A DNA stretch of 64,000 nt from the NCBI RefSeq assembly GCF_000504085.1, contig NC_022792.1, forward strand, positions 1,888,001 to 1,952,000, read 5' to 3'. Within the stretch, counting starts at the first letter, position 1, and each line of letters starts with the position of its first letter. A program made the translations under genes and the position numbers. The stretch comes from Pseudothermotoga elfii DSM 9442 = NBRC 107921 (lineage in GTDB: Bacteria > Thermotogota > Thermotogae > Thermotogales > DSM-5069). Below are positions 15,688-38,336 of the stretch, piece after piece. A model generated the notes under the pieces. The model saw only the letters and a program-made list of their open reading frames with translations. It was not told where the DNA came from and made no database searches.

Positions 15688-16881
15688 CTATGATTCATTC
15701 TTGTTTTCTTTCTTAACTATTAATTGTGAATTGAAAAGAATACTACTGAGCAAGAGCACCATTAGGAAGCATAGAAATGCTATTAGAAACATTGGTTGAT
15801 AATTACCTTTTGCAATGAGGCGCCCTATGAGTCCAACAGAAAGAGATTGCGAACACATGTTAACAACATTGCCAATCCCAAAGATCTTTCCTTGATCATG
15901 TTTCTGTGCAAGAGATGAAAGAAGCGAGTTTACCATAGAACACAAAAAACCAGAAGTTATTCCAAACCCAAGAAACCAGATGAACCAAAATAGGGTGAAA
16001 ATACTTTTGGTTGTTACCAAGCTATAGGAGAATACCATGAAACCACAAACAAGAGCCGCCAAGAATGAGCTTAGAAGGAATAATTTTTTCTGGCTAAAAT
16101 ACTCAACAAACTTGCCTGTAAAAATGCCGGACACACCACTAAGAAGTGTGAGTCCTCCCACCCATATTGGTGACATAGTTTCACTAATCACGGCATTGTC
16201 GGTAAGAAAAGATGTTAGATAAGGTATTATGCCTCCATATGCAGCCCAGAAGAAAAAATGAATACAAAGGTATAATCCTAACGCAAAATAGTTTATGGTC
16301 ACCTTTGTCTTTGTTCTATAACGAAGTTGCCTTTCACACATCGAATGGACAATGTTCTTTTTGCGATGAGTAAATATAGTCAAAGCCAGTATTGACAGAA
16401 CTACAATAAACAATTTTAGGGTTACGTTCAAGTTATATTTCTCCGAAAGGGATACCAATACAGATGCTCCAAATAATGAGATATTGACTACGCCTGTTGA
16501 AATCCCGAAATTCTTAGTCCTGTTATAATCCTCACTTTGATCACTTACCAAGACTGAGTAAGGTATCAAGAAACTGAAAGTACACAAGACAATCAAAAAG
16601 CCAGAAAAGATTACCATTGGTTTTGTTAGAGTCATTATTCCAAACAAAGCAAGAATAATCACAAGAACTAATATAAATATAAATAGCATCTTCTTTCCGA
16701 AGAAATCAACAAGAGATCCGATCAACGGGCCCACAAAAGCTGTACATAATATACCAGCCGAGAAAACTAAACTGGCAGCTTGCATATCTCCCAGTTTTTG
16801 TATCAAATATGGTATCAAAACCAAGTTCGAGATCGCATAAAGAATTCCCAGTGTGCTACCAACGCATATTATTGCAAACAC
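15688..16881 (-). CDS. MFS transporter, last gene of the catabolic operon
   Basis: 397 aa with about 12 hydrophobic segments and the usual two-half MFS layout. The loop after helix 2 reads GPLIGSLVDFFGKK (MFS motif A position), and the second half repeats it as GIFTGKFVEYFSQKK. The start overlaps the hydrolase gene upstream by 13 bases. In E. coli, YegT (a nucleoside-type MFS carrier) holds the analogous place beside a YegU-like hydrolase; I cannot show that this protein is orthologous. Uptake of the same substrate, or export of a product, are both possible. Confidence 0.85.
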   Translation of the reverse strand: MFAIICVGSTLGILYAISNLVLIPYLIQKLGDMQAASLVFSAGILCTAFVGPLIGSLVDFFGKKMLFIFILVLVIILALFGIMTLTKPMVIFSGFLIVLCTFSFLIPYSVLVSDQSEDYNRTKNFGISTGVVNISLFGASVLVSLSEKYNLNVTLKLFIVVLSILALTIFTHRKKNIVHSMCERQLRYRTKTKVTINYFALGLYLCIHFFFWAAYGGIIPYLTSFLTDNAVISETMSPIWVGGLTLLSGVSGIFTGKFVEYFSQKKLFLLSSFLAALVCGFMVFSYSLVTTKSIFTLFWFIWFLGFGITSGFLCSMVNSLLSSLAQKHDQGKIFGIGNVVNMCSQSLSVGLIGRLIAKGNYQPMFLIAFLCFLMVLLLSSILFNSQLIVKKENKNES

Positions 16882-17861
16882 GATATATCACCTAAAAACA
16901 TAATTTCAAGCATTTGGGCATATTTACATAGATCGAGTTTATTTATTCTTAACACTTCATGCACGATATCGTTTGGTATATTGTGATTTTTGGCATATAG
17001 AGTTGAAAGTGCACCAGCAATCGCAGCAATTGTATCTGTATCACCTCCAATCGATGCTCCCATTTTTATGGAGAGCCACACATCCTCTTTTGCATACGAA
17101 AAAATAGCTACAGATGCTGGGACAACCTCATTAGCTTCCATTGTTGTTCCAATGGCTTCGTATATGAAGTCCATAACTTCATTCATCGAAGACATATTTT
17201 TGATAGTATCAATTGCAAACCCAATTCGTCGACCCGTATATGCTCCAACAAAATTACCGGGTCCCATTTTTCTTCCTTGAAAAGCTCCCTGTAATATATG
17301 ATTTATAATCTCATCATAGGTCGCCCCCAAGGCAGCATAATGATATCCAAACCCAAGGGCCATTGCAGCTTCTACAGCTATATCCGAGTAATGCGTACAT
17401 AAACAACTTTCCCAAATGGCTTTTTGCAAGGTTTCAATATCACCTTTCTTAACAGATAGGGAAACAGCAAGTATTCTCATTGCGGCACCACAGGTGGTAC
17501 CTTGACCCTCGCCTGATTTCCCGGATAAAACCCTCAGTGTACTAGGTCCCAGAAATCCTTTTGCTGCGGCATTTGTTTCTTCACACCAGGATCTCAGAGT
17601 GTTCAACGTTATATCTTTATCTATCTTTCTCGCATTATAATAAGCTTCTATCAACTCAAGTACCTGCTCGGTATCATCAGTCACCTGACCTTTTTTGAGA
17701 TTCTTGTGTATTGATGATATGCAGGTTGGATCTAAGAGCTTATCGATTAATCCATAATTCTTTCTTATTGTTTCTCGAGTCATGAATTCAGTTGGCATAC
17801 CCATTGCATCACCAACTGCAAATGCCTCCAAGGTTTTCTCAAATATCTTGGCCACGTTCAT
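16869..17861 (-). CDS. ADP-ribosylglycohydrolase-family protein (YegU/DraG-like)
   Basis: 330 aa from ATG 17861 (MNVAKIFEKTLEAF), preceded by GGAGGAAAGG; an in-frame TTG at 17888 lies in the upstream gene. The family removes ADP-ribose or cleaves related glycosidic bonds with a dinuclear metal site. Metal ligands are seen in TDDTEQVLELIEA and IGGDTDTIAAIAGAL, with AVGDAMGMPTEF near the N-terminus. No ADP-ribosyltransferase is nearby. With a sugar kinase, aldolase and importers in the same operon, a role as a small-molecule glycosidase (YegU-like) is more likely than protein de-ADP-ribosylation. That last step is inference. Confidence 0.85.
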   Translation of the reverse strand: MNVAKIFEKTLEAFAVGDAMGMPTEFMTRETIRKNYGLIDKLLDPTCISSIHKNLKKGQVTDDTEQVLELIEAYYNARKIDKDITLNTLRSWCEETNAAAKGFLGPSTLRVLSGKSGEGQGTTCGAAMRILAVSLSVKKGDIETLQKAIWESCLCTHYSDIAVEAAMALGFGYHYAALGATYDEIINHILQGAFQGRKMGPGNFVGAYTGRRIGFAIDTIKNMSSMNEVMDFIYEAIGTTMEANEVVPASVAIFSYAKEDVWLSIKMGASIGGDTDTIAAIAGALSTLYAKNHNIPNDIVHEVLRINKLDLCKYAQMLEIMFLGDISCLQ

Positions 17862-18837
17862 TGGACCTTTCCTCCAATCCAAAAGCACAAGTAATTGCTG
17901 CCTTATCGTTGAATTTCAGAGTACACTTATCTGTGCTTCTCATGTCTAATCTCGGATTTCCATCTACGATAACAAAGCCTTTTGTTTTTCCAACTTCAAC
18001 GGTATCACTATTCTTGAATATGAACTGTGATAGCAAAAATGGCGATATGGCATCCAATTCTGTTGCCACAATCTTGATAATTGGTTGTTCACTGACAATC
18101 ATTCCTCCCACCATGTTAAGATATGGTGCCCAACACAATTTGCCGGACAAAGCCTTCCCTTTGTGAACATCAACTTTGTGCAAAGGAGAGATTATTATTT
18201 GACCTATCTCAAACGGAATTTTCACGAGTTCTCCATTGATTCTTATTTCAGTTTTTGAAGTTCCAATCTTTGTAGGCGTGGTAGCAATTTTCTGTCCTTT
18301 CAGAAATGCTTTAGCGTCAACTGTGCAAACCTGTCCTCCAACTGTTGAAACTGTGCAATTACTAAATACCACATCATTGAAGGCAACCCCGATTAAATTT
18401 CTATCATCGTATACCTCTACTCCAGCTACTGGCCTTGTAGAGAACTTTCCTAAGTTGAACTTCAACAAATCATCTACACTTTTGAAAGTAACTAAAGGCC
18501 CAGCATTAATAGTTCCTAAAGCCACACCAGCTATCGGTACAAGTTTTCCTGCCAAGTATTGGCCATAAACAACGTCACTCAATGTCCCATCCCCACCAAA
18601 AACTATTACAAAATCAACATTTTGTAAGATACTTCCTGCTATGATAGAGTCTTTTTCAGTACCATATGCGTGCTCTTCACCAACAACACTGTGTGCTATA
18701 CCTTTTGGTAGTAATCTTGAAGTTGCATAAGTGCAGAATAAGTTGTGATGGACAAGTTCCCTTGCTAAAAGATGCCATATTTCATCGAATCCAGCGTATT
18801 TTCCAGATGATGGGTTACATACTATCCCAATCCTCAT
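17839..18837 (-). CDS. ATP-NAD kinase / diacylglycerol-kinase-fold protein
   Basis: 332 aa. The N-terminal strand GIVCNPSSGKYAG and the FVIVFGGDGTLSDVV motif with its GGDGT signature mark the NAD-kinase/lipid-kinase superfamily, closest by eye to the poorly characterised COG3199/AcoX-type group. ALGTINAGPLVTF replaces the usual substrate loop. The substrate is unknown; the company of a PfkB kinase and a glycohydrolase suggests phosphorylation of a sugar- or nucleotide-related intermediate. It overlaps the sorC-type gene by 4 bases and the hydrolase start by 23. Confidence 0.8.
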   Translation of the reverse strand: MRIGIVCNPSSGKYAGFDEIWHLLARELVHHNLFCTYATSRLLPKGIAHSVVGEEHAYGTEKDSIIAGSILQNVDFVIVFGGDGTLSDVVYGQYLAGKLVPIAGVALGTINAGPLVTFKSVDDLLKFNLGKFSTRPVAGVEVYDDRNLIGVAFNDVVFSNCTVSTVGGQVCTVDAKAFLKGQKIATTPTKIGTSKTEIRINGELVKIPFEIGQIIISPLHKVDVHKGKALSGKLCWAPYLNMVGGMIVSEQPIIKIVATELDAISPFLLSQFIFKNSDTVEVGKTKGFVIVDGNPRLDMRSTDKCTLKFNDKAAITCAFGLEERSNERGQDI

Positions 18838-19790
18838 TGTTCCATCACCCGAACTATTTCTCGAGCAGTTCTAATGTCGGTAATTAATATGTTTATAAAC
18901 CTTCCTTTCATGGCAGCACATATTGCTTTTACCTTCTCTTCTCCTCCGGCGATACCGATGACTCGTGGTGTATTTCTTAACTGCTCCAGAGAAATACCCA
19001 AAACATGATCTTGATAGCCTTTGAGTTCACAAGCATTACCATTTTGATCAAAGAATCTTGCTGCTATATCACCGACAGCTGCTTGGCTTACAAGCTTTGT
19101 GACAAAATTTTGTGGGAGTACAGATCTAAAAGCATTCGACAGTGAAATGGGTTCGCCAATTCCTACGACCGCCAGATCGAGTCTGTCCCATAGATCAACA
19201 ATGGTTCGCACACTTTCATTGCTAAGCATATATCTTAAGCTTTCATTATCTTCAAAGAATGCAGGAGCGTGAAGATAGTATCTGTTTGAATGAAATGCGT
19301 CAGCTATCTTTTCAACAAGTGCATTTACTTGATACTCGTATCTGTGTTGCCCTACACCTCCAAGTAGTGGTACAAACACGGTGTTGCTTAACTTCTTTGA
19401 GGTTATCATATGTTCAACTACTTGTGCGAGAGTTCTACCCCAGGAAATACCCACGATCATACCATCTTCAATTACTTTTCCTAAGTAACTTGCACCAGCT
19501 TTGGCTATACTTTCAAGGCGATCTCTGTCTCCTGTGTCAGCGATCACCGTTTCTCGTAAACCAAAAAGTTCCACTATTCTGTTCCCAAGATTTGTACTAT
19601 CGATCTTGTCCTCATGAATCTTTATTTCAACCAACCCGCGCTTACGAGCTTCATTGAGGAGCCTTGAAACCTGGGATCTTGAAACACCGAAGGTTCTTGC
19701 AATTTGTTCTTGTGTGCAGTTTTCTATGTAATACATTTTGCAAATTCTGATCAACTCAGAATCATTTTTCTTTGAATCAGAAGATTTCAT
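18834..19790 (-). CDS. SorC/DeoR-family transcriptional regulator
   Basis: 318 aa. The N-terminal helix-turn-helix is CTQEQIARTFGVSRSQVSRL followed by LNEARKRGLVEI (about residues 25-57). A C-terminal sugar-phosphate-binding domain follows, with the family segments GISWGRTLAQVVEHM, VFVPLLGGVGQ and VVGIGEP. Members usually repress a sugar operon and are released by a phosphorylated sugar. Its place inside the operon implies autoregulation, and the perfect palindrome at 27611-27635 is the obvious candidate operator. It overlaps both neighbours by 4 bases. Confidence 0.92.
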   Translation of the reverse strand: MKSSDSKKNDSELIRICKMYYIENCTQEQIARTFGVSRSQVSRLLNEARKRGLVEIKIHEDKIDSTNLGNRIVELFGLRETVIADTGDRDRLESIAKAGASYLGKVIEDGMIVGISWGRTLAQVVEHMITSKKLSNTVFVPLLGGVGQHRYEYQVNALVEKIADAFHSNRYYLHAPAFFEDNESLRYMLSNESVRTIVDLWDRLDLAVVGIGEPISLSNAFRSVLPQNFVTKLVSQAAVGDIAARFFDQNGNACELKGYQDHVLGISLEQLRNTPRVIGIAGGEEKVKAICAAMKGRFINILITDIRTAREIVRVMEQ

Positions 19791-20620
19791 TGAGTCACCT
19801 CCACGAAGTCATAGGACAGATTTGCCCCATATTTCTGGATAACTTTTGCTGCCCAATTATGAGCAATTTCAATTGCAGTAAAAATGTCTCCTGTACGACT
19901 CAATGAAAATACCAATCCACTTACAAATGCATCCCCTGCACCAGTTGTATCAACAATATTATCAACACTATGGACAGCAAATTCTCTTACGAGTGTACCT
20001 TGATAGTACAACTTCGTTGGATTTTCACCACTTGTAACGATAACCCACTGGCTGATTTCATTGCATTTTCTGATTTTTGACGCTTCGTTCGCTGAAAGTA
20101 CAGTGATTGATGAAAAATTAGCCACTTTTCTTATTTCATTTTCTCCAAAATATAAACCACAACCGCCTGGCACATATATTTTCAACCTTGCACTGCTCTG
20201 TAAAGCTCTGAGGGCTTCTGAAGGAATCGAATCTGCAACACATACAACGTCATATTCATCATATCTTGTGTCACCATCCGAATGGAAAAGTGCATTTCCA
20301 CCAAGAGAGATAATTCTTCTACGTCCCTCTTTGTCAAGTAGAATAATGGTTGAGGCAGTTTTTCCTTCTGATAAACAATGAACCTGAATACCCATCTTGT
20401 TTAAAGAATGCATTATAAAAGTTGCTACGTCATCTTTTCCGATTCCACAGAAGAGATGAGTTTCGCAACCGTTCAAGGCGAGGTTGATAGCAATGTTGGC
20501 GCCGCAACCACCAATTGTATGAAACTCTTTTAATGCAAAAACCATTGAATCGTCCTCAGGAAAAGATTCAACAAGTATATAGTGATCCAAAGCAACGGCA
20601 CCAAGCACTGCTATTCTCAT
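19787..20620 (-). CDS. PfkB-family carbohydrate/nucleoside kinase
   Basis: 277 aa from ATG 20620 (MRIAVLGAVALDHYI), which overlaps the upstream permease stop by one base (TAATG); AAAGGAG lies 8 bases before. The N-terminal signature GGCGANIAINLALNG and the C-terminal catalytic motif DTTGAGDAFVSGLVF, with its Asp base, are intact. The PfkB family phosphorylates sugars such as ribose, fructose and tagatose-6-P, and nucleosides. The substrate cannot be read from sequence. In E. coli, YegV is the PfkB kinase beside YegU, which parallels this arrangement. Confidence 0.92.
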   Translation of the reverse strand: MRIAVLGAVALDHYILVESFPEDDSMVFALKEFHTIGGCGANIAINLALNGCETHLFCGIGKDDVATFIMHSLNKMGIQVHCLSEGKTASTIILLDKEGRRRIISLGGNALFHSDGDTRYDEYDVVCVADSIPSEALRALQSSARLKIYVPGGCGLYFGENEIRKVANFSSITVLSANEASKIRKCNEISQWVIVTSGENPTKLYYQGTLVREFAVHSVDNIVDTTGAGDAFVSGLVFSLSRTGDIFTAIEIAHNWAAKVIQKYGANLSYDFVEVTQ

Positions 20621-21447
20621 TACTTGATGGCTCCTTTCGTTAATCCGCTGACAAGGTATTTCTGAAAGGCCAAGAAGATGCAAATTGGTGGCAATGTGCA
20701 AAGAAGGGACGCTGCACAGAGATAACCCCATTCAACCGCTCCACCCGTACCAAGGAATCTTGCAAGAAGGAGAGGCAATGTATAACGCGATCTGTCTTGA
20801 AGTAGCACTAATGCAAAGAAGAATTCATTCCAAGCGAGCATGAAAGCGAATGTCCCAACAGCAATTAATCCTGGGACAGCCATTGGTATTACAATAGTCA
20901 ACAACGCTCGACTCCTCGTGCAACCATCTATCATAGCGGCTTCTTCAATAGATACTGGGATCTGATCAAAGTATCCCTTTAGCAACCAAGAACAAAAGGG
21001 TATTGTAAACGAAAGGTAGAGTATAACAAGACCCGAGAGAGAATTCATCAAATTCAAGTTTTTCAAAAGACTTGTAAATCCAACTGCCATCAGAACACCA
21101 GGAAATGCTTGTGAAGCGAGTAACCATATTACCAGCTGACGTTTCCCAACAAAGGAAAACCTTGATATAGCATAGCCAGCAGGAACCGTTGTACAAAGGC
21201 AAAGAACAACTGTACATGCCGTGGTCATCAAACTATTTCGGAAATTGGTTCCAAAGTCCATTTTTCTGAATATATAAGAGAAGTTCCCCGTATAGAAGGT
21301 TTTCGGTAATCCCATAGGTTCTCTGAGGATTTCTGCAGTGCTTCTGAATGAGTTACTGAAAAGTAAGAAAAGTGGAGATAGGATTATTAGAACCACCAAG
21401 AGAGCCATTATGTTTGCTACGATTACATAGGATTTCTTCCGTTTCAT
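20620..21447 (-). CDS. Carbohydrate ABC transporter permease (MalG-type)
   Basis: 275 aa, six membrane segments. The ATPase-contacting EAA loop reads EEAAMIDGCTRSRALLTIVI, and the last residues GLTKGAIK match the MalG-type C-terminus (GLTxGAVK). It pairs with the MalF-type protein encoded just upstream, overlapping by 4 bases. No ATPase gene is in the operon, so a shared MsmK/MalK-like ATPase elsewhere is expected. Confidence 0.93.
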   Translation of the reverse strand: MKRKKSYVIVANIMALLVVLIILSPLFLLFSNSFRSTAEILREPMGLPKTFYTGNFSYIFRKMDFGTNFRNSLMTTACTVVLCLCTTVPAGYAISRFSFVGKRQLVIWLLASQAFPGVLMAVGFTSLLKNLNLMNSLSGLVILYLSFTIPFCSWLLKGYFDQIPVSIEEAAMIDGCTRSRALLTIVIPMAVPGLIAVGTFAFMLAWNEFFFALVLLQDRSRYTLPLLLARFLGTGGAVEWGYLCAASLLCTLPPICIFLAFQKYLVSGLTKGAIK

Positions 21448-22325
21448 TCCCTTTCCACCTCTTTGAGCAACATTTTTACATAAACAGAAACTGGTATAAG
21501 CAAGATCACTAAAGAGATAACACCTATCGCTGCTCCATAACCCTTTTGATAATACGCAAATGCATTCTGATATCCGTAGAGAGAGAGTATCAATGATGAG
21601 TTTCCAGGACCACCATTTGTCAAAACAAATACCACATCGAACATATTAAAGGTCCATATGCACATGAGTGTTAATATGACCGAAATAACACTCTTCATCA
21701 TTGGTAGTGTTATGTGAAAAAAACTCTGAACAGAATCAGCACCATCTATCTGAGCCGCTTCATAGATATCAGATGGAATGGCTTGGAGCCCAGCCAGGAG
21801 CATAATTGTCATGAAAGGTAGGCCAAGCCAAATGTTAACAGCAATGCACGCCATCAGAGAATACCCTGGTGTTATTAACCATGAAGGAGGATTCGACATC
21901 AATCCAGTAGCTTTCAGAAACGCGTTCAATGGGCCTTCTGTGGACAGAATATATCTCCAGATTAAACCTGCAACGACAGGTGGGGTCGCCCAAGGTAAGA
22001 GTATAAGACCACGATAGAGATTCCTCATCTTTACACATTTCATGTTCATGAGTAGAGCTATTGCCATACCAATAATAAACTCTGAGCCAACACAACTCAC
22101 AACCCATATAATATTATTTTTCAAACTTGACCAGAAAAGGTCATCCTCAAAAAGTGTGACAAAATTATCTATACCAACAAATCTCTCTTTACCAGCAAAA
22201 ATACTCCCGCCATAAAGACTAGACATCATACCCTGCACGAAGGGATAGACACTCACAATCGATATGATCAATATAAGTGGAAATAAGTATTGAAGAGCTT
22301 TTTTCGTGTCTCCCAAAGAATTCAT
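21444..22325 (-). CDS. Carbohydrate ABC transporter permease (MalF-type)
   Basis: 293 aa with six membrane segments. The EAA loop is YEAAQIDGADSVQSFFHITL, and the pre-EAA segment GLQAIPSDI is typical of the CUT1 sugar-importer family. It lies 19 bases after the binding-protein gene and overlaps the second permease by 4 bases. CUT1 systems generally import di- or oligosaccharides, glycosides or glycerol phosphates. Confidence 0.93.
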   Translation of the reverse strand: MNSLGDTKKALQYLFPLILIISIVSVYPFVQGMMSSLYGGSIFAGKERFVGIDNFVTLFEDDLFWSSLKNNIIWVVSCVGSEFIIGMAIALLMNMKCVKMRNLYRGLILLPWATPPVVAGLIWRYILSTEGPLNAFLKATGLMSNPPSWLITPGYSLMACIAVNIWLGLPFMTIMLLAGLQAIPSDIYEAAQIDGADSVQSFFHITLPMMKSVISVILTLMCIWTFNMFDVVFVLTNGGPGNSSLILSLYGYQNAFAYYQKGYGAAIGVISLVILLIPVSVYVKMLLKEVERE

Positions 22326-22344
22326 TTTTTATACTCCTTCCCGA

Positions 22345-23598
22345 CTATCTCAGGCCAAGTTGTTTCAACAAAGCATTTCCCTTTACTTCGATCTCTTTGT
22401 ACGCATCTTGCGTACTTAATTTGCCAAGAATGACTTTTTCAAGTGTTGGTGCCAATATTTTCCATTCAAAGGTGTAAAAACCAGGCATAGGTGGTTTCAC
22501 ATTCTTAGCATATTTCAAGAGTTCGTAAGCATAATTCCAGTCATATTTGGGTTCCGAGAATCTTGAATCTTGCAAAGCACTATTTCTCATCGGGAATAAC
22601 CAGTCTTTGTAACTTATATCCGCAGAATTCTTTGTGTTTGTGAAAAATCGAATGAATTCAAAAGCTTCCTTTTTGTATTTACTTGCTTTTGATATACCTA
22701 TTCCTTGTGGATCGGCAGCGTTAGTCATATTTTCTCCCTTTTTGATCCACATCAATCCCCACTCGAAGTTCTTACTGGCTGATTCTGAAAGCAATCGACG
22801 ATTCCAACAACCAAAGACAACCATTGCGTATGTTTCATTTAAGAAGCCTTGCATCAAGGAAGTATAATCAATGCTAATTACATCACTAGGCATGACTTTG
22901 TGTTTTGTTATCAGTGAAAGATAATAATCTATAGCTTCCCTGGCTTTATCATCGATCTCAACTTTCCAATGTCCCTTTTCATCTGTCTGAAGTACTTTTC
23001 CCCCGTTTTGCTCTATCAAAGTCCAGTGAAATCTTTCCATAAGTGGTGCAAGTAATCCCCAAGTCTTTCCATTTGTTTTTTGCACTATTTGTGTAGCTAT
23101 TTCTACTAATTGATCCCAGGTCACTATTCTATCACTTGGTAGATCAATACCAAGTTCTCTGAAAAGCTTCCTATTGTAGAAAATTACTTGACTTTCTCTA
23201 CACCAAGGTATTCCAAAGATATTGCCTTTCTCATCCATACAATCACGCCAGGCATCATTAGGTATATCTTTCAGTATCTCATTATCTATAAATTTGTTTA
23301 ATGGTTCGACAAACCCCATCAATCCAAATTCCCTAAATTTCTCAGCATCGGTATGGAAAATGTCAGGAGCCGTTCCTGCACCAAAGTTAGTTAACAAGTA
23401 CTGATCAGATGTTTCCCATGTTCCCCAAACTATTTCTACTTGTACATCAGGATTAGACTCGTTCCACTCATCAACAATGTCAAATACTTGATCAACTGCA
23501 CCAGGTTGCCATGCCAAGCAGTAGAATTTAAGCTTGACTGAGGCAAGGAGAGTTATAGAAATTGTTATCATTAACAAGATTGCAGACACTTTTCTCAT
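22345..23598 (-). CDS. Extracellular sugar-type solute-binding protein (CUT1)
   Basis: 417 aa. Signal peptide MRKVSAILLMITISITLLAS, then a mature protein beginning KLKFYCLAWQPGAVDQVFDI. Family 1 solute-binding features include the NFGAGTAPDIFHTDAEKF segment and the C-terminal KILAPTLEKVILGKLSTQDA. AAAAGGGGGAA precedes the ATG. It delivers the ligand to the two permeases that follow; the ligand is unknown. Confidence 0.92.
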   Translation of the reverse strand: MRKVSAILLMITISITLLASVKLKFYCLAWQPGAVDQVFDIVDEWNESNPDVQVEIVWGTWETSDQYLLTNFGAGTAPDIFHTDAEKFREFGLMGFVEPLNKFIDNEILKDIPNDAWRDCMDEKGNIFGIPWCRESQVIFYNRKLFRELGIDLPSDRIVTWDQLVEIATQIVQKTNGKTWGLLAPLMERFHWTLIEQNGGKVLQTDEKGHWKVEIDDKAREAIDYYLSLITKHKVMPSDVISIDYTSLMQGFLNETYAMVVFGCWNRRLLSESASKNFEWGLMWIKKGENMTNAADPQGIGISKASKYKKEAFEFIRFFTNTKNSADISYKDWLFPMRNSALQDSRFSEPKYDWNYAYELLKYAKNVKPPMPGFYTFEWKILAPTLEKVILGKLSTQDAYKEIEVKGNALLKQLGLR

Positions 23599-23638
23599 AA
23601 TTATTCCCCCTTTTCAGTAAAAATTCCAAAATCATCGA

Positions 23639-24646
23639 TCAAGATATTCTCACAACTATCTTCAGGTTACTGGGATTTGCTGCTGCTTGAAATGCCTTCT
23701 CTATCTCATTCAGATTGAATTCACCCGTGATCAGCTTTACATACATATTCTGGTGTATTTTCAATTCTTGGAATGCATTTCTGAAATCCTGATCAGAAAA
23801 ACCAAAACTTCCTATGAGATCGATTTCATCGTAATGTATATAATATGGATCAATAGAGAGTCGTGAAGACCTTGACATTCCTCCAAATAATTCAATCTTG
23901 CCGCCAGGTTTAACACAGTTGAAAGCTTCTATTACTGCATCTGTTGAATCATTAGCAACTATGATGTGGTCAAATTTACCCATTTTGGATGAGAAATCTG
24001 TAAGTGAAACCATGTTCACGTTAATAGTCTCAAATTTCATGGTTTGCGCTAGTGCTAGTCTGTTTTCATTTATTTCAGACAGAAAGACTTGGTTATTCCT
24101 GTTTCTGAGAAGAATGCTTGCAAGTATTCCCATTGGTCCGGCACCAATTACGAGGATTCTTTCTTGTTCTCTGGGTTTGATTCTTTCAATTCCATGAATT
24201 ACACATGCAAGAGGTTCTGTAAGTGTTGCTATTGCATCATTGATCTCCATGTCAACTTCAGCCATAGTTCTTCTGATTAGTCCAGTTGGCACAACCAAGT
24301 ATTCAACAAATGCCCCATTGATCCAGATTTTGTTTCTGCAGAGTTCAGAGAATCCTTTTTTACAGAATTCACATTCGCCACATCCTAAATAAGGTGGGAT
24401 CGCAAATTTCCTTCCAAGCAATTCATTATCAGCCACTGTATTTACCTTTACTACAGTGCCCACTACTTCGTGTCCAAGAATACAAGGTGGTCGAAAAAGA
24501 GGATGTCCACGTTTATAAGTTTTAATATCTGTACCACAAATTCCAACAACTTCGACTCTTAGAAGGACTTCGTCATCAGTCAAAACTGGATTACTAACTT
24601 CTTCTATCTCTATTTTTCCAATCTCTTTGTAAATAGCTGCTTTCAC
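23639..24646 (-). CDS. Zinc-dependent medium-chain dehydrogenase (sorbitol/threonine dehydrogenase-like)
   Basis: 335 aa. Catalytic-zinc residues appear in GICGTDIKTYKRGHP and GHEVVG, and structural-zinc cysteines in GCGECEFCKKGFSELC. The cofactor fold is marked by LVIGAGPMGILASILL followed by the acidic FLSEINENR, which favours NAD(H). It likely oxidises a polyol or sugar alcohol, or reduces a keto-sugar, in the operon's pathway. GGAAGG lies before the ATG. A hairpin precedes the gene at 24690-24709. Confidence 0.9.
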   Translation of the reverse strand: MKAAIYKEIGKIEIEEVSNPVLTDDEVLLRVEVVGICGTDIKTYKRGHPLFRPPCILGHEVVGTVVKVNTVADNELLGRKFAIPPYLGCGECEFCKKGFSELCRNKIWINGAFVEYLVVPTGLIRRTMAEVDMEINDAIATLTEPLACVIHGIERIKPREQERILVIGAGPMGILASILLRNRNNQVFLSEINENRLALAQTMKFETINVNMVSLTDFSSKMGKFDHIIVANDSTDAVIEAFNCVKPGGKIELFGGMSRSSRLSIDPYYIHYDEIDLIGSFGFSDQDFRNAFQELKIHQNMYVKLITGEFNLNEIEKAFQAAANPSNLKIVVRIS

Positions 24647-24689
24647 TTTCCTTCCACCCTTCCATGAAACACGTATTAGTTAATAGATA

Positions 24690-24709
24690 CGGGGGCATGG
24701 ATACCCCCG
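24690..24709 (-). other. Intercistronic hairpin in the catabolic operon
   Basis: A 6-bp GC stem CGGGGG / CCCCCG with an 8-base loop lies in the 73-base gap between the SUOX-like gene and the dehydrogenase gene, the widest gap in the operon. No U-tract follows on the minus strand, so a full terminator is unlikely. A partial terminator or an mRNA-stabilising stem that lowers or sets the ratio of distal genes fits better. Confidence 0.5.
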
Positions 24710-24719
24710 CATCTTCTTA

Positions 24720-25202
24720 CTACATCTCAACTCTTATTTCTATTACCCACCACGCCCAGTTTTCCTTAGGATAGATTTTTTCAATCTCTGGGTAAGTGGT
24801 CACAGGGAATACCAATTTCAGTGGTCCACCTTGATTTTGAGGCAAATCTTTTCCTTTGTTGGCATATGCTAATATTATTGGATACAACTTAGCGTCGTTG
24901 ACGGTAACTGTAAATTCTTTTTTGTCAGAACAGACGAGAATGATTTTCTTTGCATTTGTCGGATAGCCCACATAATTGAGCAAATCAATTAGACTTATCC
25001 CTTGGTAGAAGCATTCTCCCATCCAAGGATCCTGAACGACATAAGTTGTTCCAGCCATTTTTTTAAGCTCCTCAAGTGTGAAGGCATAGCCATCTTCAGT
25101 GTTTTTTAGAGCTATAATACCTTTGGCTGTGAGTACTGTGTCTGCAAAGAGAACCCCAGTACAGAGTGCGATAAGAACAATCAAGAAGACCTGTTTTTTC
25201 AT
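24720..25202 (-). CDS. Exported SUOX-fold (oxidoreductase molybdopterin-binding-like) protein
   Basis: 160 aa from ATG 25202 (MKKQVFLIVLIALCTGVLFA, a signal peptide) behind GGAGGGAAGG; an in-frame TTG 45 bases upstream would spoil the signal. The mature part resembles the small SUOX-like domain: TLEELKKM, YQGISLIDLLNYVG, the run GPLKLVFPV and the final WWVIEIRVEM. The part of sulfite oxidases holding the Moco-binding Cys is absent, so Moco binding is doubtful; a ligand- or partner-binding role is possible. It follows the exported phosphoesterase after 22 bases. Confidence 0.7.
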   Translation of the reverse strand: MKKQVFLIVLIALCTGVLFADTVLTAKGIIALKNTEDGYAFTLEELKKMAGTTYVVQDPWMGECFYQGISLIDLLNYVGYPTNAKKIILVCSDKKEFTVTVNDAKLYPIILAYANKGKDLPQNQGGPLKLVFPVTTYPEIEKIYPKENWAWWVIEIRVEM

Positions 25203-25224
25203 TTTCCTTCCCTCCCATCTGTAT

Positions 25225-26841
25225 TTATCTCTGGATGATCCCTTCATCCAGATGAATTCTTAGTGGATCAGCGACAACCCAAGGATCTCTTACTACACCC
25301 GTGAGGCTGTACATTGCTGAATCGGAAATCGTATTCGATATATTGGGATTACTAAATTTGACCATCATGCCATCCGTTCCATCATAGAAAGAAACTACAG
25401 AACCGGATTTAGCTACAAACTTAGCATTGTCAACCGTAACCAGTTTTCCAAGAAAGCACTCGGGGTAATCTTTGAGAATCTTAAATGTTATACTTCTATT
25501 ACTAACCCAGAAGCTCTTCCGTTTCTCTACTTGAGTTTCGGTATCTTTAAAGACAAATTCGTGCATTCCTTGAGCCAGATTAGTTAGATTCAAACGATAA
25601 AGATACTCCACCCAGTTGTCTTTGTTCACAATAATTGGTTTAAAGGAAAGCTCTTTGCCATCAATGGAAATTGCTACATTTGAAATAAATTTCGAAGTGA
25701 CAACTCTGATGGGTACAAGCCCTGATAATACACCTTCGAAAGGAAATTCCAACCAGATTGAGAGATCTTCATTGATGTTGATATAAGCATAGTTCAAAAC
25801 ATTTCTACAAGTTTCAAACAGCACGTAGCCAAATTCGTCTCCGGATGGGGAAGGTCCTTCCCACCAAGCACCACATACTGCTCCACAAGTAAGCTCCAAA
25901 TAGGGATAGTCAGATAGTTTTATCATTGTATGCCAATGACCCGAGATATGAGCGGTTATCTGATAATCAATGAACAGTTTTTTGAGTTCTCTGTTGTTTT
26001 CGGAGTCAGTCAGGTCATAAAGTGGTTCATGAGAGAAAACTACTATTGGTTGATTGTTTGGTACCAAAGTTAAGTCCTTTTCCAACCATTTGAGTTGAAC
26101 GGAATCAATTTCATATTTAAGTGAGCCACGGTCTGATAGATGTATGTCGAGAACGATAAAGTGAATACCAGATCTGTTAAAAGAATAATATCTTGGACCA
26201 AAAGTTGCTTCGAAAATCCCAGTTGGTCTTTCAGCCTTACTTTTGAATTCATGGTTCCCAATCGCATAGAAGACATCGGCCTTTATTCTATTCATATAGG
26301 AAGCGACTCGTCCAAGCTGATCTTTAGCTGATTGATCATCGATGTCTCTGATACTTGCTCCAATGTCTCCAAGTACTAATACGAAGGAGAGTTCCTGTTT
26401 GTTCAGACTCTGTATCAATTTTTCCAAGTACTTGTCTGCATTATATTTCATCGAGCGATCTGTCAAAGCCTTTGAGAATGCTTCGGGATTCTCCGCATAA
26501 TGAATATCACTTACCACGGCAAAAGTTCTACTGAAATGAGATTTGGTGAGTGCAAATAAAATTTGTCTCTCATTAGTTGAAGAGTACCACTTTCTGCAAG
26601 CATATTCATCAGGTAATATTATGAAAATAAAAGGTTCGTTAGTATCTAAAAAGAAATCTCCATCTTCATTTGTTGCAACTATTTCTCGTCCATCGGATAC
26701 ATAACAATTTGGCAATCCTATCTCGTCTTCATCAAAGATGCCATTGGCATTTGAGTCCAGAAACACTTTTCCACTGATTGCATGAACTGTAGTAAACGTT
26801 AAGACAGCAATTAACCAAAAAATCGTAAGACATTTCTTCAT
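25225..26841 (-). CDS. Exported calcineurin-like metallophosphoesterase
   Basis: 538 aa from ATG 26841, preceded by AGGGGGGAA. Signal peptide MKKCLTIFWLIAVLTFTTVHA. An N-terminal Metallophos_N/SdrD-like domain (GKVFLDSNANGIFDEDEIG) is followed by a phosphoesterase domain with all metal motifs: SDIH (112-114), GDI (158-160), GNHE (195-198), FSHEP and SGHWH. The C-terminal about 100 aa (GKLVTVDNAKF, FYDGTDGMMVKF, LTGVVRD) look like an OB fold of the type seen in extracellular nucleases and nucleotidases. It is likely to dephosphorylate a nucleotide or phosphodiester outside the cytoplasm; the substrate is inferred, not shown. Confidence 0.85.
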   Translation of the reverse strand: MKKCLTIFWLIAVLTFTTVHAISGKVFLDSNANGIFDEDEIGLPNCYVSDGREIVATNEDGDFFLDTNEPFIFIILPDEYACRKWYSSTNERQILFALTKSHFSRTFAVVSDIHYAENPEAFSKALTDRSMKYNADKYLEKLIQSLNKQELSFVLVLGDIGASIRDIDDQSAKDQLGRVASYMNRIKADVFYAIGNHEFKSKAERPTGIFEATFGPRYYSFNRSGIHFIVLDIHLSDRGSLKYEIDSVQLKWLEKDLTLVPNNQPIVVFSHEPLYDLTDSENNRELKKLFIDYQITAHISGHWHTMIKLSDYPYLELTCGAVCGAWWEGPSPSGDEFGYVLFETCRNVLNYAYININEDLSIWLEFPFEGVLSGLVPIRVVTSKFISNVAISIDGKELSFKPIIVNKDNWVEYLYRLNLTNLAQGMHEFVFKDTETQVEKRKSFWVSNRSITFKILKDYPECFLGKLVTVDNAKFVAKSGSVVSFYDGTDGMMVKFSNPNISNTISDSAMYSLTGVVRDPWVVADPLRIHLDEGIIQR

Positions 26842-26852
26842 TTTGTTCCCCC

Positions 26853-27596
26853 CTATTTTGCATGGTGATGCACACATGAAACAAGTTTTCGTACATATTC
26901 GGTTACATCATCGGCTTGGAATACATTTCTTCCAAAGGCAACTCCTTTTGCTCCATGATCAATGGCTTCACGAACCATAGAAAACGCATCCAGATCCTTC
27001 GGACCACCGGCTATCAGAATAGGTATTGGAACAGCAGAAGTTATCGTACTGAAAGTATCTCCCCCTGTGTAGTAGACTTTCAATGCATCTGCGCCAAGTT
27101 CGAAGGCAGCTCTGACACCGGTAGCAATACAGGTAACGTCATTACTCTTTGAGTTTTGCGAGAGTACTTCAACAAAAAGTGGTATACCTTCTTTATCGCA
27201 TTGTTCCGCAATTTTTGCAACAATTTCAAGCGATGGTATCTCACCATCACCAGCCACAAAGCACATGACAATGACTGCATCTGCACCCAATCTTAGTGCA
27301 TGATCAACAGATGTTGTAAGTCTGTGAAAATCAAATTTGGGGCTATAGTTTGTTGATGCACCTGTTATTCTGAGTATTATTCCGACATCGCCAGAAATAC
27401 AGTCGTGACATTTGTTCAGAACGCCGGGGTTTAAGATCAAAGCGTCCGGTTTTCCCATAATCACTTTCTGAATCGTGTCACGTATATCTACAAGACCTGG
27501 TATGGGGCCTTGGAATTGACCGTGATCGAGGGCAATTACAGCAGAATAACCATCAGGTTTGAATATTCTCTTCAGTCTTAATGATTTACCATACAC
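26853..27596 (-). CDS. DeoC/FbaB (DhnA)-family class I aldolase
   Basis: 247 aa, first gene of the operon, starting at GTG 27596 behind AAGGAG. ALDHGQFQGPIPGLVDI is the phosphate/substrate loop of the DhnA-type class I fructose-bisphosphate aldolase and LsrF group. The Schiff-base lysine is expected in GADALKVYYTGG, and ILIAGGPK plus GVAFGRNVFQ form the phosphate-binding C-terminal strands. It probably cleaves a phosphorylated keto-sugar to dihydroxyacetone phosphate and an aldehyde, or performs an LsrF-like thiolytic step. FbaB lies beside yegTUV in E. coli, the same protein company as here. Confidence 0.88.
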   Translation of the reverse strand: MYGKSLRLKRIFKPDGYSAVIALDHGQFQGPIPGLVDIRDTIQKVIMGKPDALILNPGVLNKCHDCISGDVGIILRITGASTNYSPKFDFHRLTTSVDHALRLGADAVIVMCFVAGDGEIPSLEIVAKIAEQCDKEGIPLFVEVLSQNSKSNDVTCIATGVRAAFELGADALKVYYTGGDTFSTITSAVPIPILIAGGPKDLDAFSMVREAIDHGAKGVAFGRNVFQADDVTEYVRKLVSCVHHHAK

Positions 27597-27610: not shown

Positions 27611-27635
27611 TCACAAATGTGCTGCACATTTGTGA
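27611..27635. promoter_or_regulatory. Perfect palindromic operator candidate at the operon head
   Basis: The arm TCACAAATGTG (11 bp) is repeated as an exact inverted copy after a 3-base spacer, 15-39 bases before the aldolase start. It lies just downstream of a -10-like TAAAAT, where a repressor would block initiation or elongation. The operon encodes a SorC-family regulator, making that protein the natural candidate ligand. I saw no second copy in the window. Confidence 0.65.
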
Positions 27636-30825: not shown

Positions 30826-30916
<91 letters not shown>

Positions 30917-30920
30917 GGTT

Positions 30921-30997
30921 GTGCCCGTAGCTCAGCTGGATAGAGCGCCAGACTGCGGATCTGGAGGCCGGGAGTTCAAATCTCCCCGGGCACGCCA
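30921..30997 (+). tRNA. tRNA-Arg (anticodon GCG), CCA encoded
   Basis: 77-nt type I tRNA. Acceptor GTGCCCG pairs with CGGGCAC, followed by discriminator G and CCA. The anticodon stem CCAGA/TCTGG encloses CTGCGGA, giving anticodon GCG for CGC and CGU codons. The T-loop is GAGTTCAAATCTC. Its 3' 22 bases are also the antisense end of the Ppx/GppA-like gene. Confidence 0.96.
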
Positions 30998-31809
30998 GAA
31001 GCAGGCCATTTTCCTTCCTCTATCATCCTTGCCAAGGTATATCTGAAGCCCTTCGTTGAAACTTTTATATTGCCCTTTGTCGCTATTGCGGTTGCCACCG
31101 CGCAACCTGCGATAATGGTTTTTTCTCTTCCGGGTGGTATTATCTTCATATCTAATATTTGCTGAAGATTCATCTTCCTGAGCTTTTCTGAAATTTTATA
31201 AATATCTTCAGGCGTGAGTATAAAACCATCGAGTGATTTTAGATCCCATTTTTGAACCTTTAACGCGGCGATTGCAACAAAGGATCCTCCAATGCCAACA
31301 GGGTTTTCAAAACCAGGAAGCTGTTTTAAAACATAATCAACGGTCTTGTCAAAATCCTTTGCCCTGGGTAAAGAGAGATCAAAGATAGAATTCAAAACAT
31401 GTGTGCCTATCTCAAGGCTCACAAACCAATCTTTTTTAACAACCTCCAGACTGCCTCCTCCCAGATCAAAGACTGTGACATCCATACTTTGTTTTGGATC
31501 GATACACAAATATGTCAAATAAGCTTCTTCTTTTTCTGAAAGAATTTTTCCTTTTATTTCAAAATGCTTTAACAGCCTGTGGAAAAGTTCTGGTCTCTGG
31601 CGAAAAACCGCAGTACCAAAAGCGTATGTTTCTATACCGCTGATTTCACTTTGAATCTTCTCAACTGATTGCTTTGCAACACAAAAAGCCTGCTCATCGT
31701 CTTTAATTGACTTGAGGCCAACTTCATAGACCTTCTCCAAGAGTATCTTGCCTCTATCGTAAACAAGAGCAATAAAAGAATTCGAGCCAAGATCTAAGAC
31801 GGCTATCAT
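30976..31809 (-). CDS. Ppx/GppA phosphatase-family protein
   Basis: 277 aa, actin-like ATPase fold of exopolyphosphatase / (p)ppGpp 5'-phosphatase. The N-terminal phosphate-1 motif is AVLDLGSNSFIALVYD, the phosphate-2 motif VFDLGGGSLEVV, and GIGGSFVAIAAL follows. It is one of the short, two-domain forms (about 300 aa) rather than the 500-aa E. coli type. The reading frame runs 22 bases into tRNA-Arg on the opposite strand, so the last seven codons and stop come from tRNA sequence. Activity on polyphosphate or pppGpp is not decided by sequence. Confidence 0.88.
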   Translation of the reverse strand: MIAVLDLGSNSFIALVYDRGKILLEKVYEVGLKSIKDDEQAFCVAKQSVEKIQSEISGIETYAFGTAVFRQRPELFHRLLKHFEIKGKILSEKEEAYLTYLCIDPKQSMDVTVFDLGGGSLEVVKKDWFVSLEIGTHVLNSIFDLSLPRAKDFDKTVDYVLKQLPGFENPVGIGGSFVAIAALKVQKWDLKSLDGFILTPEDIYKISEKLRKMNLQQILDMKIIPPGREKTIIAGCAVATAIATKGNIKVSTKGFRYTLARMIEEGKWPASGVPGEI

Positions 31810-36335: not shown

Positions 36336-38336
36336 GTGAAGACTAAATCTTCGAATTCAAGCTCATTCGCAATGATATTAGAACTTGTTAAAACAAAAGT
36401 GCAACAATTATCTGCAATGCAGGGATTTGTCAAAATATCCCATCAGACAAATACCGCGGTCAAAACAAAGCAGGAAACTCAGAACGATGAAAAGCTAATA
36501 AAAAATCCTGTAACCGAAAAAAACGGAATAGTAAAACTTTCACAGATAAAAACTGACCTGAATTCTAAAATTGATATAGATAGTACTACGAAAAACAAAC
36601 AGAGCACCAATCAGAAAACCATCACTGAAAAGCAAAGCAATGATGTAAAACAAAACCAGAATGCATTATCCAGCAAACAGATAAGCCCTGAACCAAGCCC
36701 AAAAATTTCTGTTGAAAAACAAAACGAGGAACTTTCTTCAAAAAATCTCACCGAGCAGGTTCAAAGTAAGGTTCAAAACATTCCAAAAAGATCGATTTTC
36801 AAAGAAGGCGTAGAAAACAAATCACATCAGGAAAATCAGCAATTAAAACAAATTGTTCATAACAATGGGCAAAAAAATACAGCTAATCAAAAGGTAAATT
36901 CTCATAAAATAAGTAATTTACAGATTCAGACCCAAAGCAAAAACACATCTTCAAACACTCAACAGAATAATTCTCAAAAAACCGTTCATGCAAATATAAA
37001 TATCCCTCAAACAGAGAGTCTTGGAGTGAAAAATAGCCATCAGAAACCCATTGCAACATCAGAGAAATCGGAAAATGACCTTACCATTACGATCAAAACC
37101 AATCTTCAAAGCAACACAAACAAACAAAATGTACAAGCGGAAAAAACGCAGAGCAAGGACATCTTCCAATTTCAAAAGCCCAGCCAGACATCTCAATCAT
37201 CAAATCATCAAAGGGCAAATGTTGGGTCTGACTCACAGAATATCATTGTGTCAAAGCAACCAGTGGTAAGCACCAGAAAAGCTGAGAAACTTGTTTCTCA
37301 AACTAATGAACCAGAAGCCGAAACAGTTCAAAAATTGAAAACCGATCCAGACGTTCTTTCTATAAGCAAAACTACTAAAAAAACTGTACAAATACCCCGT
37401 TCAGAGGAACAGCAAAAAACAGTAGATTCGAGAAATTTAATTGAACAGCTTATTTTGCAGGGAAAGACAGAAATTTCAACACAATTGAAGAAAACAGAAG
37501 ATCTTCCGGAACAAAAAATTTCTCAGCAAAGTGGGATAATAGCTGAAAATCTGATATCAGAAAAAAGTGTCCTTAAATCAAGTCAATCCCAACCTGCCAT
37601 GACTTTCAAACAAATACAACTGATCATTAAAAACGCGGTTGTTCAGATCCAAAACAGCACAAGTGAATTCACCCAATTTAGACAGATTAAAAGAGAAATT
37701 CCGAGTCAGCTGAAAACATCTCAACCAATAAAAATAGAAAACTTCAAGCTCGAGATAGCAAAAAATTTAAAAAACGATACGCCAGTTATATCTGAACAAC
37801 CTCAAATCGAGAAATTCAAACAGGTCGAACAAGTTAAAGAACTTTTGAATGAAAAGCTTGCACGTAAAACGTACGAAAGTGAGCAAATAACGCAAACACA
37901 TAATGAAATTCAGAAGACAGCTGATTCAGTCGTGACAAGAATCGAACAACAAGAAAGAAGTTCTAACATTCAAACAATTGTTGAGACAGTTAAAGAAATG
38001 CAGAACAACATTGTGGAAAAGGCAACAGTTGATCTATCACCACCAAATCTCGGAAAAGTCGAAATCGAGCTAATAAAGCAACAGGATAGATTGATCATAA
38101 CCTTGAAAGTCCAGACAAACGAGGCAAAAGAATTACTCGAAAAAAATTCCAAAGAACTCGCCTCACGATTGAGCACTCTCGGTTTTAAAGTCGAGCAGAT
38201 AGATATCAAAACTCCTCATAAGACAGAAGAAGATCAACTAAGTAATCATCAGGAACAAAAAGAAAATCAAAATCATGAACGCAGACAAAAAAGACAACAG
38301 GAACAGGAGGTGAAAGAAGATGATCAACTCAATTGA
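36336..38336 (+). CDS. fliK: Flagellar hook-length control protein FliK
   Basis: At least 666 aa. A long low-complexity Gln/Asn/Lys/Ser-rich region (about 40-560) acts as the molecular ruler. The conserved C-terminal Flg_hook domain reads ATVDLSPPNLGKVEIELIKQ with RLIITLKVQTNEAKELL, and switches export specificity through FlhB. The first standard start codon is GTG 36336, but it lacks a ribosome site. A near-perfect AGGGGGTGA (36275-36283) sits 4 bases before an in-frame ATA at 36288, so the true start may be ATA, adding 16 residues. The end overlaps flgD by 17 bases. Confidence 0.85.
   Translation: MKTKSSNSSSFAMILELVKTKVQQLSAMQGFVKISHQTNTAVKTKQETQNDEKLIKNPVTEKNGIVKLSQIKTDLNSKIDIDSTTKNKQSTNQKTITEKQSNDVKQNQNALSSKQISPEPSPKISVEKQNEELSSKNLTEQVQSKVQNIPKRSIFKEGVENKSHQENQQLKQIVHNNGQKNTANQKVNSHKISNLQIQTQSKNTSSNTQQNNSQKTVHANINIPQTESLGVKNSHQKPIATSEKSENDLTITIKTNLQSNTNKQNVQAEKTQSKDIFQFQKPSQTSQSSNHQRANVGSDSQNIIVSKQPVVSTRKAEKLVSQTNEPEAETVQKLKTDPDVLSISKTTKKTVQIPRSEEQQKTVDSRNLIEQLILQGKTEISTQLKKTEDLPEQKISQQSGIIAENLISEKSVLKSSQSQPAMTFKQIQLIIKNAVVQIQNSTSEFTQFRQIKREIPSQLKTSQPIKIENFKLEIAKNLKNDTPVISEQPQIEKFKQVEQVKELLNEKLARKTYESEQITQTHNEIQKTADSVVTRIEQQERSSNIQTIVETVKEMQNNIVEKATVDLSPPNLGKVEIELIKQQDRLIITLKVQTNEAKELLEKNSKELASRLSTLGFKVEQIDIKTPHKTEEDQLSNHQEQKENQNHERRQKRQQEQEVKEDDQLN

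Follow-up and report, generated by a model that had tools for sequence, protein, structure and literature searches.

Between positions 27596 and 15688 of a 64,000 nt stretch of the Pseudothermotoga elfii DSM 9442 = NBRC 107921 genome (contig NC_022792.1, positions 1,888,001 to 1,952,000; the whole stretch is referred to as the window), twelve minus-strand genes form, judged by their content and order, one conserved catabolic operon. It is real and widespread, with the same gene order in six other Thermotogota genomes and a parallel in Bacillota, and by sequence it is not a version of the Escherichia coli yeg system, as a preliminary description of the locus had proposed. A literature search found no direct description of this operon or of catabolic clusters with an ADP-ribosylglycohydrolase. 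We tentatively read it as a pathway that scavenges an external alpha-riboside bearing a phosphate and containing a pterin, most likely a compound of the methanopterin class. The computed evidence comprises gene content and order, folds, catalytic residues, homology to PruR, co-occurrence across genomes and an upstream palindrome.

A conserved gene order in Thermotogota

Inspection of the open reading frames (ORFs) confirmed all twelve tightly packed genes, and the Pfam/NCBIfam classes of their products match those listed earlier (the two permeases, which lay outside the scan, were matched to CUT1 permeases of related loci). Two ORF starts were over-long. The PfkB gene most likely begins at ATG 20620, in a TAATG overlap with the permease stop, and encodes 277 amino acids (aa), not 314; the hydrolase likely begins at ATG 17861 rather than 17888. 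Once these two are set aside, the intergenic gaps range from -25 to +73 bases, which leaves the upper end of the earlier range (-23 to +73) as it was and moves the lower one. On either side the unit is flanked by unrelated genes of the opposite strand.

We searched 103 Thermotogota genomes with the hydrolase (E 0.001) and compared the neighborhoods of the matches. The hydrolase occurs in 25 of these genomes, a few matches being remote paralogues, and the neighborhoods fall into three layouts. Version A has the same twelve genes in the same order in P. elfii and in G064, G036, G024, G028, G029 and G030; some of these stretches ended before the aldolase, and a separate aldolase search located the gene in place. 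Since the identical order recurs in six other genomes with different flanks, the unit is more than a chance arrangement, and the earlier proposal of a single operon holds. Its distribution is patchy, with the hydrolase present in two of the four genomes of the window's own genus. Version B comprises an aldolase, a SorC regulator, a dehydrogenase, ATP-binding cassette (ABC) permeases with a binding protein, a xylose-isomerase-like TIM barrel, a NAD-kinase-fold protein and the hydrolase, usually with a major facilitator superfamily (MFS) carrier and sometimes with an Ldh_2 enzyme. Version C combines GntR, PfkB, an RbsABC-type transporter and the hydrolase.

An exported PruR-like protein found with the operon

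The exported 175 aa product of the gene at 24720..25247, Oxidored_molyb-like by Pfam, had been called SUOX-like, in a scheme with an optional oxidation step. Fold and profile searches instead make it a predicted pterin-binding protein of the PruR type rather than a sulfite oxidase. With its AlphaFold model (pLDDT 75, with low confidence in the 34-residue signal region at the N-terminus) the best PDB matches were PruR structures (7rkb and 7kos, TM 0.83-0.85 on target, E 6e-11), and all sulfite oxidases ranked lower; the profile search gave E 3.5e-23 for PruR versus 1e-4 for sulfite oxidases. PruR has no molybdenum cysteine and binds pterins in a pocket that includes Trp160, Tyr104 and position 102 (2026 review, PMC13259868). 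No cysteine is kept in an alignment of 11 homologues of the operon protein, hence the molybdenum cysteine is absent, and the motif contains a Trp as in PruR. Trp160 corresponds to the invariant W166 and Asn102 to the invariant D108, with a consistent numbering offset of 19; Asp at position 102 is also found in PruR groups C and D (PMC13259868). Fold, size and secretion signal are shared as well. We therefore rejected a catalytic oxidase, or any molybdoenzyme of the sulfite oxidase family. Unlike PruR proteins, the window copy lies in a catabolic operon and not beside a DcpA/DTB signaling protein, and no DcpA/DTB gene turned up there or in any of the other PruR-bearing operons examined.

Full-length PruR-like copies are present in 7 of the 103 Thermotogota genomes, exactly the seven with version A. 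Of 398 Bacillota genomes, 16 have such copies, and each of these belongs to the 34 hydrolase-positive genomes (hypergeometric 5e-11 for Thermotogota and 1.6e-19 for Bacillota, relatedness not being corrected for). Five of the Bacillota genes sit on separate contigs and still adjoin genes for FGGY, MFS or phosphodiesterase proteins of the operon, a pattern that fragmentation of an operon during assembly would produce. In Chloroflexota we noticed five weaker homologues, two of which were inspected (L305 and L306); these adjoin a gene for an uncharacterized 379 aa protein and no catabolic genes, and are possibly PruR-regulator pairs outside Proteobacteria.

A parallel operon in Bacillota

A genome-wide scan and a search of the 398 Bacillota genomes yielded further loci, and 143 hydrolase loci were tabulated. 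At least 12 Bacillota genomes carry a parallel operon, its ends cut by contig breaks in some, with the order SorC, S, A and T components of an energy-coupling factor (ECF) transporter, PfkB, hydrolase, aldolase, dehydrogenase, FGGY kinase, MFS, SUOX/PruR-like protein and type I phosphodiesterase (Pfam names from L065). Seven functions are common to this operon and version A: the SorC regulator, PfkB, the hydrolase, the aldolase, the dehydrogenase, an MFS-type carrier and the PruR-like protein. Three others are filled by unrelated proteins. The carbohydrate ABC importer of the window is exchanged for the ECF system, whose S component matches riboflavin/ECF families; the NAD-kinase-fold protein for a xylulokinase-like FGGY kinase; and the calcineurin-like phosphoesterase for the type I phosphodiesterase, which starts with a signal or lipoprotein sequence. 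Because L216, L218 and L219 have a NAD-kinase-fold protein instead of FGGY, two of them together with an ECF importer, the exchanges are independent of each other.

The aldolase is found in 37 of the 143 hydrolase loci, and the zinc dehydrogenase accompanies it in 37 of 37, which does not fit the earlier idea of an optional oxidation. Nearly all of these loci also carry a second kinase, either NAD-kinase-fold or FGGY. The 106 aldolase-free loci mostly combine PfkB with importers of the NCS1, NHS, ECF or RbsABC type. Some loci continue with a gene for an iron alcohol dehydrogenase or an aldehyde ferredoxin oxidoreductase, as would be expected if an aldehyde is released. Three Calditrichota loci (L195, L199 and L059) have aldolase, dehydrogenase and hydrolase genes beside aldehyde ferredoxin oxidoreductase and ferredoxin genes, which suggests that an aldehyde product is oxidized there.

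Enzymes and transporters of the operon

The gene at 26853..27596 encodes a class I aldolase of the DhnA/LsrF class (DeoC/LacD Pfam family). It had been described as FbaB-like; the identity is 31% to E. coli LsrF (E 5e-34) versus 21% to FbaB (E 0.003). The best NCBIfam model is the ADH-synthase family with 212 bits, FbaB models reach 28 bits at best, and the best solved relative is MJ0400 (E 9e-45). The low identity to FbaB and the weak FbaB model scores rule out an FbaB-class enzyme. Across 20 sequences, LsrF and FbaB among them, Asp24 and the Schiff-base Lys173 do not vary. Several genomes (G023, G024, G027 and G030) additionally harbor a second aldolase paralogue pair about 3 kb apart (e.g. 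G023:C1:1466520-1469916), with 31-37% identity to the window aldolase, a hint of another possible pathway using the same aldolase class.

The next gene (25225..26877) codes for an exported calcineurin-like metallophosphoesterase of 550 aa (PF00149, 3e-16), which has a signal-like stretch at its N-terminus and a partial MetallophosN match ahead of the catalytic domain. The product of 23639..24646 is a zinc-dependent medium-chain dehydrogenase of the polyol type (ADH_N, 3e-22); its best NCBIfam matches are threonine, idonate and scyllo-inosose dehydrogenases, all far below cut-off. Inositol catabolism was considered because of weak IolM/IolO-type matches of the dehydrogenase and the TIM barrel, but was rejected as no other iol genes are present. 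Import is predicted to rely on a carbohydrate-type ABC solute-binding protein (22345..23598; SBP_bac_1, 3e-36) and two CUT1-type permeases (21444..22325 and 20620..21447), which were assigned by position and by conservation across related loci (76% in G064 and about 60% in f9 genomes for the former). An MFS carrier (15688..16881; MFS_1, 7e-25), either an importer or a product exporter, ends the operon.

Two kinases are encoded. The PfkB/ribokinase-family sugar kinase (19787..20620), assigned by Pfam/NCBIfam and tree, is ribokinase-like. The other (17839..18837) has the NAD-kinase/diacylglycerol-kinase fold by Pfam and by its model (pLDDT 85; Z 17.4 to NAD kinase and 15-17 to DgkB, SphK1 and YegS), with an intact GGDG motif (G81, G82, D83 and G84) that is invariant in 18 sequences. 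In the ADP-ribosylglycohydrolase-family hydrolase (16869..17888; PF03747, 8e-48), whose nearest solved relative is MJ1187, the residues E34, D71, D72, D283, D285 and T286 are invariant in 18 sequences. The comparison follows the residue numbering of ARH3. The hydrolase retains the residues of active dinuclear-metal ADP-ribosylhydrolases, and cleavage of an alpha-ribosyl bond is predicted. ARH3, which belongs to this family, hydrolyzes acetals in which a ribosyl group is O-linked to an alcohol (serine or ribose), and also alpha-NAD (PMC8319183), and therefore an alpha-ribosyl-O-alcohol would be a reasonable substrate class. The combination of dehydrogenase, kinase and intact class I aldolase suggests that a polyol chain is oxidized, phosphorylated at its end and split by retro-aldol cleavage into dihydroxyacetone phosphate and an aldehyde.

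A proposed pathway and its alternatives

Phosphate removal outside the cell, import, glycosidic cleavage, phosphorylation and aldol cleavage, as outlined in the preliminary description, are indeed what the gene parts suggest. In the pathway that we favor, the exported metallophosphoesterase would take off or open the phosphate (a phosphodiester) outside the cell, the exported PruR-like protein would bind the pterin end, and the CUT1 system would import the glycoside. The hydrolase would then cut the alpha-ribosyl-O bond, and the free ribose would be phosphorylated by PfkB. The zinc dehydrogenase would oxidize the remaining ribityl-type chain to a ketone, the NAD-kinase-fold kinase (in Bacillota the pentulose-type FGGY kinase) would phosphorylate the chain end, and the aldolase would split the chain into dihydroxyacetone phosphate and an aryl-acetaldehyde. 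The MFS carrier may export the unusable aromatic product.

Several lines of evidence point to such a substrate. A pterin is suggested because PruR ranks best in structure and profile searches, positions 160 and 102 are kept (the latter as Asp), and full-length copies occur only with the operon. An aromatic, vitamin-like compound is suggested because the Bacillota operons replace the ABC importer by an ECF system with a riboflavin/ECF-matching S component. The ribityl chain is suggested by the inseparability of dehydrogenase and aldolase and by the analogous fin neighborhood of Clostridium scindens, where aldolase, alcohol dehydrogenase and kinase genes are induced during anaerobic riboflavin degradation (PMC12934955). 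It is the joint presence of a pterin binder, an exported phosphoesterase, an alpha-riboside-type hydrolase, a ribokinase and polyol-chain enzymes that leads to methanopterin. Tetrahydromethanopterin contains an aminophenyl-deoxyribitol and a phosphate with an alpha-hydroxyglutarate moiety (PMC8141765). The latter parts would fit as well, because some version B operons include an Ldh_2 enzyme that is best matched, at a score below cut-off, by the methanogen L-sulfolactate (ComC) family. Our literature search found no catabolic pathway for methanopterin.

Other observations weigh against this reading. Every substrate, the order of the steps and methanopterin itself are pieced together from gene content. 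The pocket residue Tyr104 of PruR is replaced by Lys or Met in the operon protein, and for this reason its ligand could differ from that of PruR. The closest solved relatives of the solute-binding protein are oligosaccharide binders. Version B has no PruR-like protein, exported phosphoesterase or PfkB, and its core pathway may have another purpose. Because the searches were seeded with the hydrolase, its constancy is partly a matter of design; the PruR-like and aldolase searches were run separately to offset this bias. The reading also leans on general background: the ribose of methanopterin is attached by an alpha-ribofuranosyl link, and MJ1425, of the L-sulfolactate/ComC family, is also a 2-hydroxyglutarate dehydrogenase used for methanopterin. 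Habitat is only suggestive: the organisms are anaerobes, and hydrolase relatives include two rumen-coded and one goat-omasum metagenome (record titles), with no aldolase found in those stretches.

It is possible that the ligand of the PruR-like protein is not a pterin and that the operon serves riboside or glycoside catabolism in general, a nucleoside-like compound or sugar glycoside being dephosphorylated, imported, hydrolyzed, phosphorylated and cleaved, as the preliminary description had it. The oligosaccharide-type binding protein would suit this, the hydrolase and PfkB pair occurs elsewhere with nucleoside-type transporters (NHS, NCS1, RbsABC), and in one Bacillota locus, L217, the hydrolase has ribokinase-like, ABC and two nucleoside-hydrolase-like genes as neighbors. 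However, a plain nucleoside needs no dehydrogenase, second kinase or aldolase; all three are constant in this branch and missing from yeg-type loci. In addition, the exclusive PruR-like gene and the ECF/riboflavin-type importer are left unexplained; we regard this explanation as rather unlikely. The same two features are unexplained if the substrate is a phosphate-linked ribosyl-polyol polymer of the ribosyl-ribitol phosphate type. Such a polymer would be opened by the phosphodiesterase outside, imported and hydrolyzed to ribose and polyol, and the polyol converted via ketose and ketose phosphate to dihydroxyacetone phosphate and an aldehyde. Textbook steps would then cover the phosphoesterase, the CUT1 importer, the hydrolase, PfkB, the dehydrogenase, the kinase (FGGY being xylulokinase-like) and the aldolase, but we consider this route improbable.

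We give just as little weight to the breakdown of a flavin-type cofactor (FAD, riboflavin or F420), in which an exported phosphodiesterase and import would precede removal of the ribityl chain by dehydrogenase, kinase and aldolase. An exported phosphodiesterase is present in the Bacillota operons, the ECF S components match the riboflavin family, and the chemistry is that of the riboflavin-induced fin neighborhood (PMC12934955). PruR, however, binds pterins, the window operon has no RibF-like kinase, and a flavin would leave no job for the alpha-riboside-type hydrolase and the ribokinase-like PfkB, which are found in every PruR-bearing operon with an intact neighborhood. Alpha-ribazoles, the lower-ligand nucleosides of cobamides, would suit the hydrolase family as alpha-N-ribosides to be salvaged or broken down, and other hydrolase loci combine ECF importers with an AIR-synthase-like protein, reminiscent of the CblT/CblS system. 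Yet the window operon has no AIR-synthase-like gene, and its aldolase, dehydrogenase and PruR-like protein would be unexplained; this origin of the substrate appears very improbable.

If the methanopterin reading is true, the operon would let one microbe feed on the cofactor of another in a manner not described so far, and methanogen cofactors would be food for neighboring bacteria. The full version of this scenario is doubtful: Thermotogota, Bacillota and other bacteria would capture methanopterin-type cofactors that methanogens release and strip phosphate, ribose and ribityl chain from them as carbon sources, using a repurposed PruR pterin binder and an ADP-ribosylglycohydrolase turned alpha-ribosidase. 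It would imply a whole small-molecule branch of the ADP-ribosylglycohydrolase fold, and the pterin assignment would imply a catabolic role of PruR proteins besides signaling. Even with another substrate, the way in which three parts have each been exchanged for one counterpart defines the steps of the pathway clearly enough for testing, and the operon provides a concrete cross-phylum gene set centered on a hydrolase family in which no function is known for the bacterial 'Yeg-like' members.

Relation to yeg, lsr and other known systems

The preliminary description saw in the operon and in E. coli yeg two versions of one pathway. Both indeed combine an ADP-ribosylglycohydrolase-family hydrolase with a PfkB kinase, an MFS carrier and a regulator of their own, and the expected co-occurrence of hydrolase and PfkB across phyla, yegU-yegV included, is borne out by the window operon and by 94 of the 143 hydrolase loci. 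In the hydrolase tree, the window sequence falls into a 31-row branch (98/93) and YegU into a 32-row sister branch (98/87), both well apart from the DraG-like paralogues of Thermotogota. The window PfkB groups with those of aldolase-bearing operons (95/94) and YegV lies in a separate 100/100 branch; the PfkB trees leave the branching order among the ribokinase, YegV and window branches unsettled. Thus, of the two grounds on which the yeg link had been staked, conserved gene order speaks for it, whereas the hydrolase and kinase branches, related to YegU/YegV yet distinct, speak against it.

Other differences concern gene content. The yeg regulator is GntR-type rather than SorC-type, no similarity to YegT was detectable in the MFS carrier, and yegTUV-yegW has no zinc dehydrogenase, second kinase, ABC system or exported proteins. 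The aldolase had been counted among the shared genes, but fbaB is divergent from yegTUV and of another aldolase class, and a study of the regulator GgaR/YegW found yegTUV to be its sole target, repressed without an effect on fbaB (PMC10819704). As for yegS, the shared fold is real (Z 15), but the window protein is equally near to NAD kinases and sphingosine kinase. By sequence, then, the overlap between the systems amounts to a gene pair and a superfamily and falls short of a demonstrated pathway.

The LsrF-like aldolase and the SorC-type regulator (27% identity to LsrR, E 3e-29) are reminiscent of the E. coli lsr operon for autoinducer-2. An autoinducer-2 operon was nevertheless rejected, as LsrK, LsrG, LsrB-type and FGGY kinase genes are absent from the window; conversely, lsr has no hydrolase, PfkB, dehydrogenase or exported proteins. 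The C. scindens fin genes also combine a class I aldolase, an alcohol dehydrogenase and a kinase-type enzyme in an anaerobe, tied to ribityl side-chain removal. They differ in having RibF-like and aldehyde dehydrogenase genes, and the part of the report available to us, from whose description the comparison was made, mentions no ADP-ribosylglycohydrolase or PruR-like gene (PMC12934955). The pseudouridine operon psuKG-psuT resembles the window operon in providing a PfkB kinase, a glycosidase and a transporter for an unusual riboside, but has no aldolase, dehydrogenase or exported proteins. To our knowledge, PsuG lies outside the family of the window hydrolase.

A palindrome upstream of the operon

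Directly before the first start codon of the operon we found a perfect 25-base palindrome with 12-base arms and a 1-base center (27611..27635, TCACAAATGTGCAGCACATTTGTGA). Its 23-base core has no other match in the genome at up to 3 mismatches (control 0). Two version A loci (L043 and L044) carry CATATGTTCTGAACAAATG at the equivalent position; the upstream regions of version B loci have no motif in common with the window palindrome. The palindrome is a probable operator of the SorC/DeoR-type regulator encoded at 18834..19790 (Sugar-bind, 1e-70; best NCBIfam model Bacillus DeoR). This protein may sense a sugar phosphate and repress the operon from the palindrome, which would make the pathway self-regulated.

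Other hydrolase loci and further features of the window

Clusters of GntR, hydrolase, NCS1 permease and PfkB genes are widespread in Pseudomonas, Aeromonas, Klebsiella and Lactobacillaceae (L072-L130). They likely serve riboside salvage and represent the actual kin of yegTUV. A different arrangement in Bacillota and Bacteroidota (L071, L196, L200, L215, L220, L228, L230 and L237) consists of GntR, ECF S, AIR-synthase-like, ECF A, ECF T and hydrolase genes with no aldolase, and its composition is reminiscent of alpha-ribazole uptake. NCBIfam gave no name for the AIR-synthase-like protein or the ECF S proteins. In L217, an AIR-synthase-like gene accompanies the PfkB, sugar ABC transporter and nucleoside-hydrolase-like genes.

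Elsewhere in the window, a 666 aa ORF rich in Gln, Lys and Asn (36336-38336) lies in a run of flagellar genes at a FliK-like position, where it causes a strong AT skew (0.28) locally. Of two neighboring tRNA genes at 30826-30997, Ser-GCT and Arg-GCG, the second is overlapped at its end by a minus-strand ORF (30976-31809).

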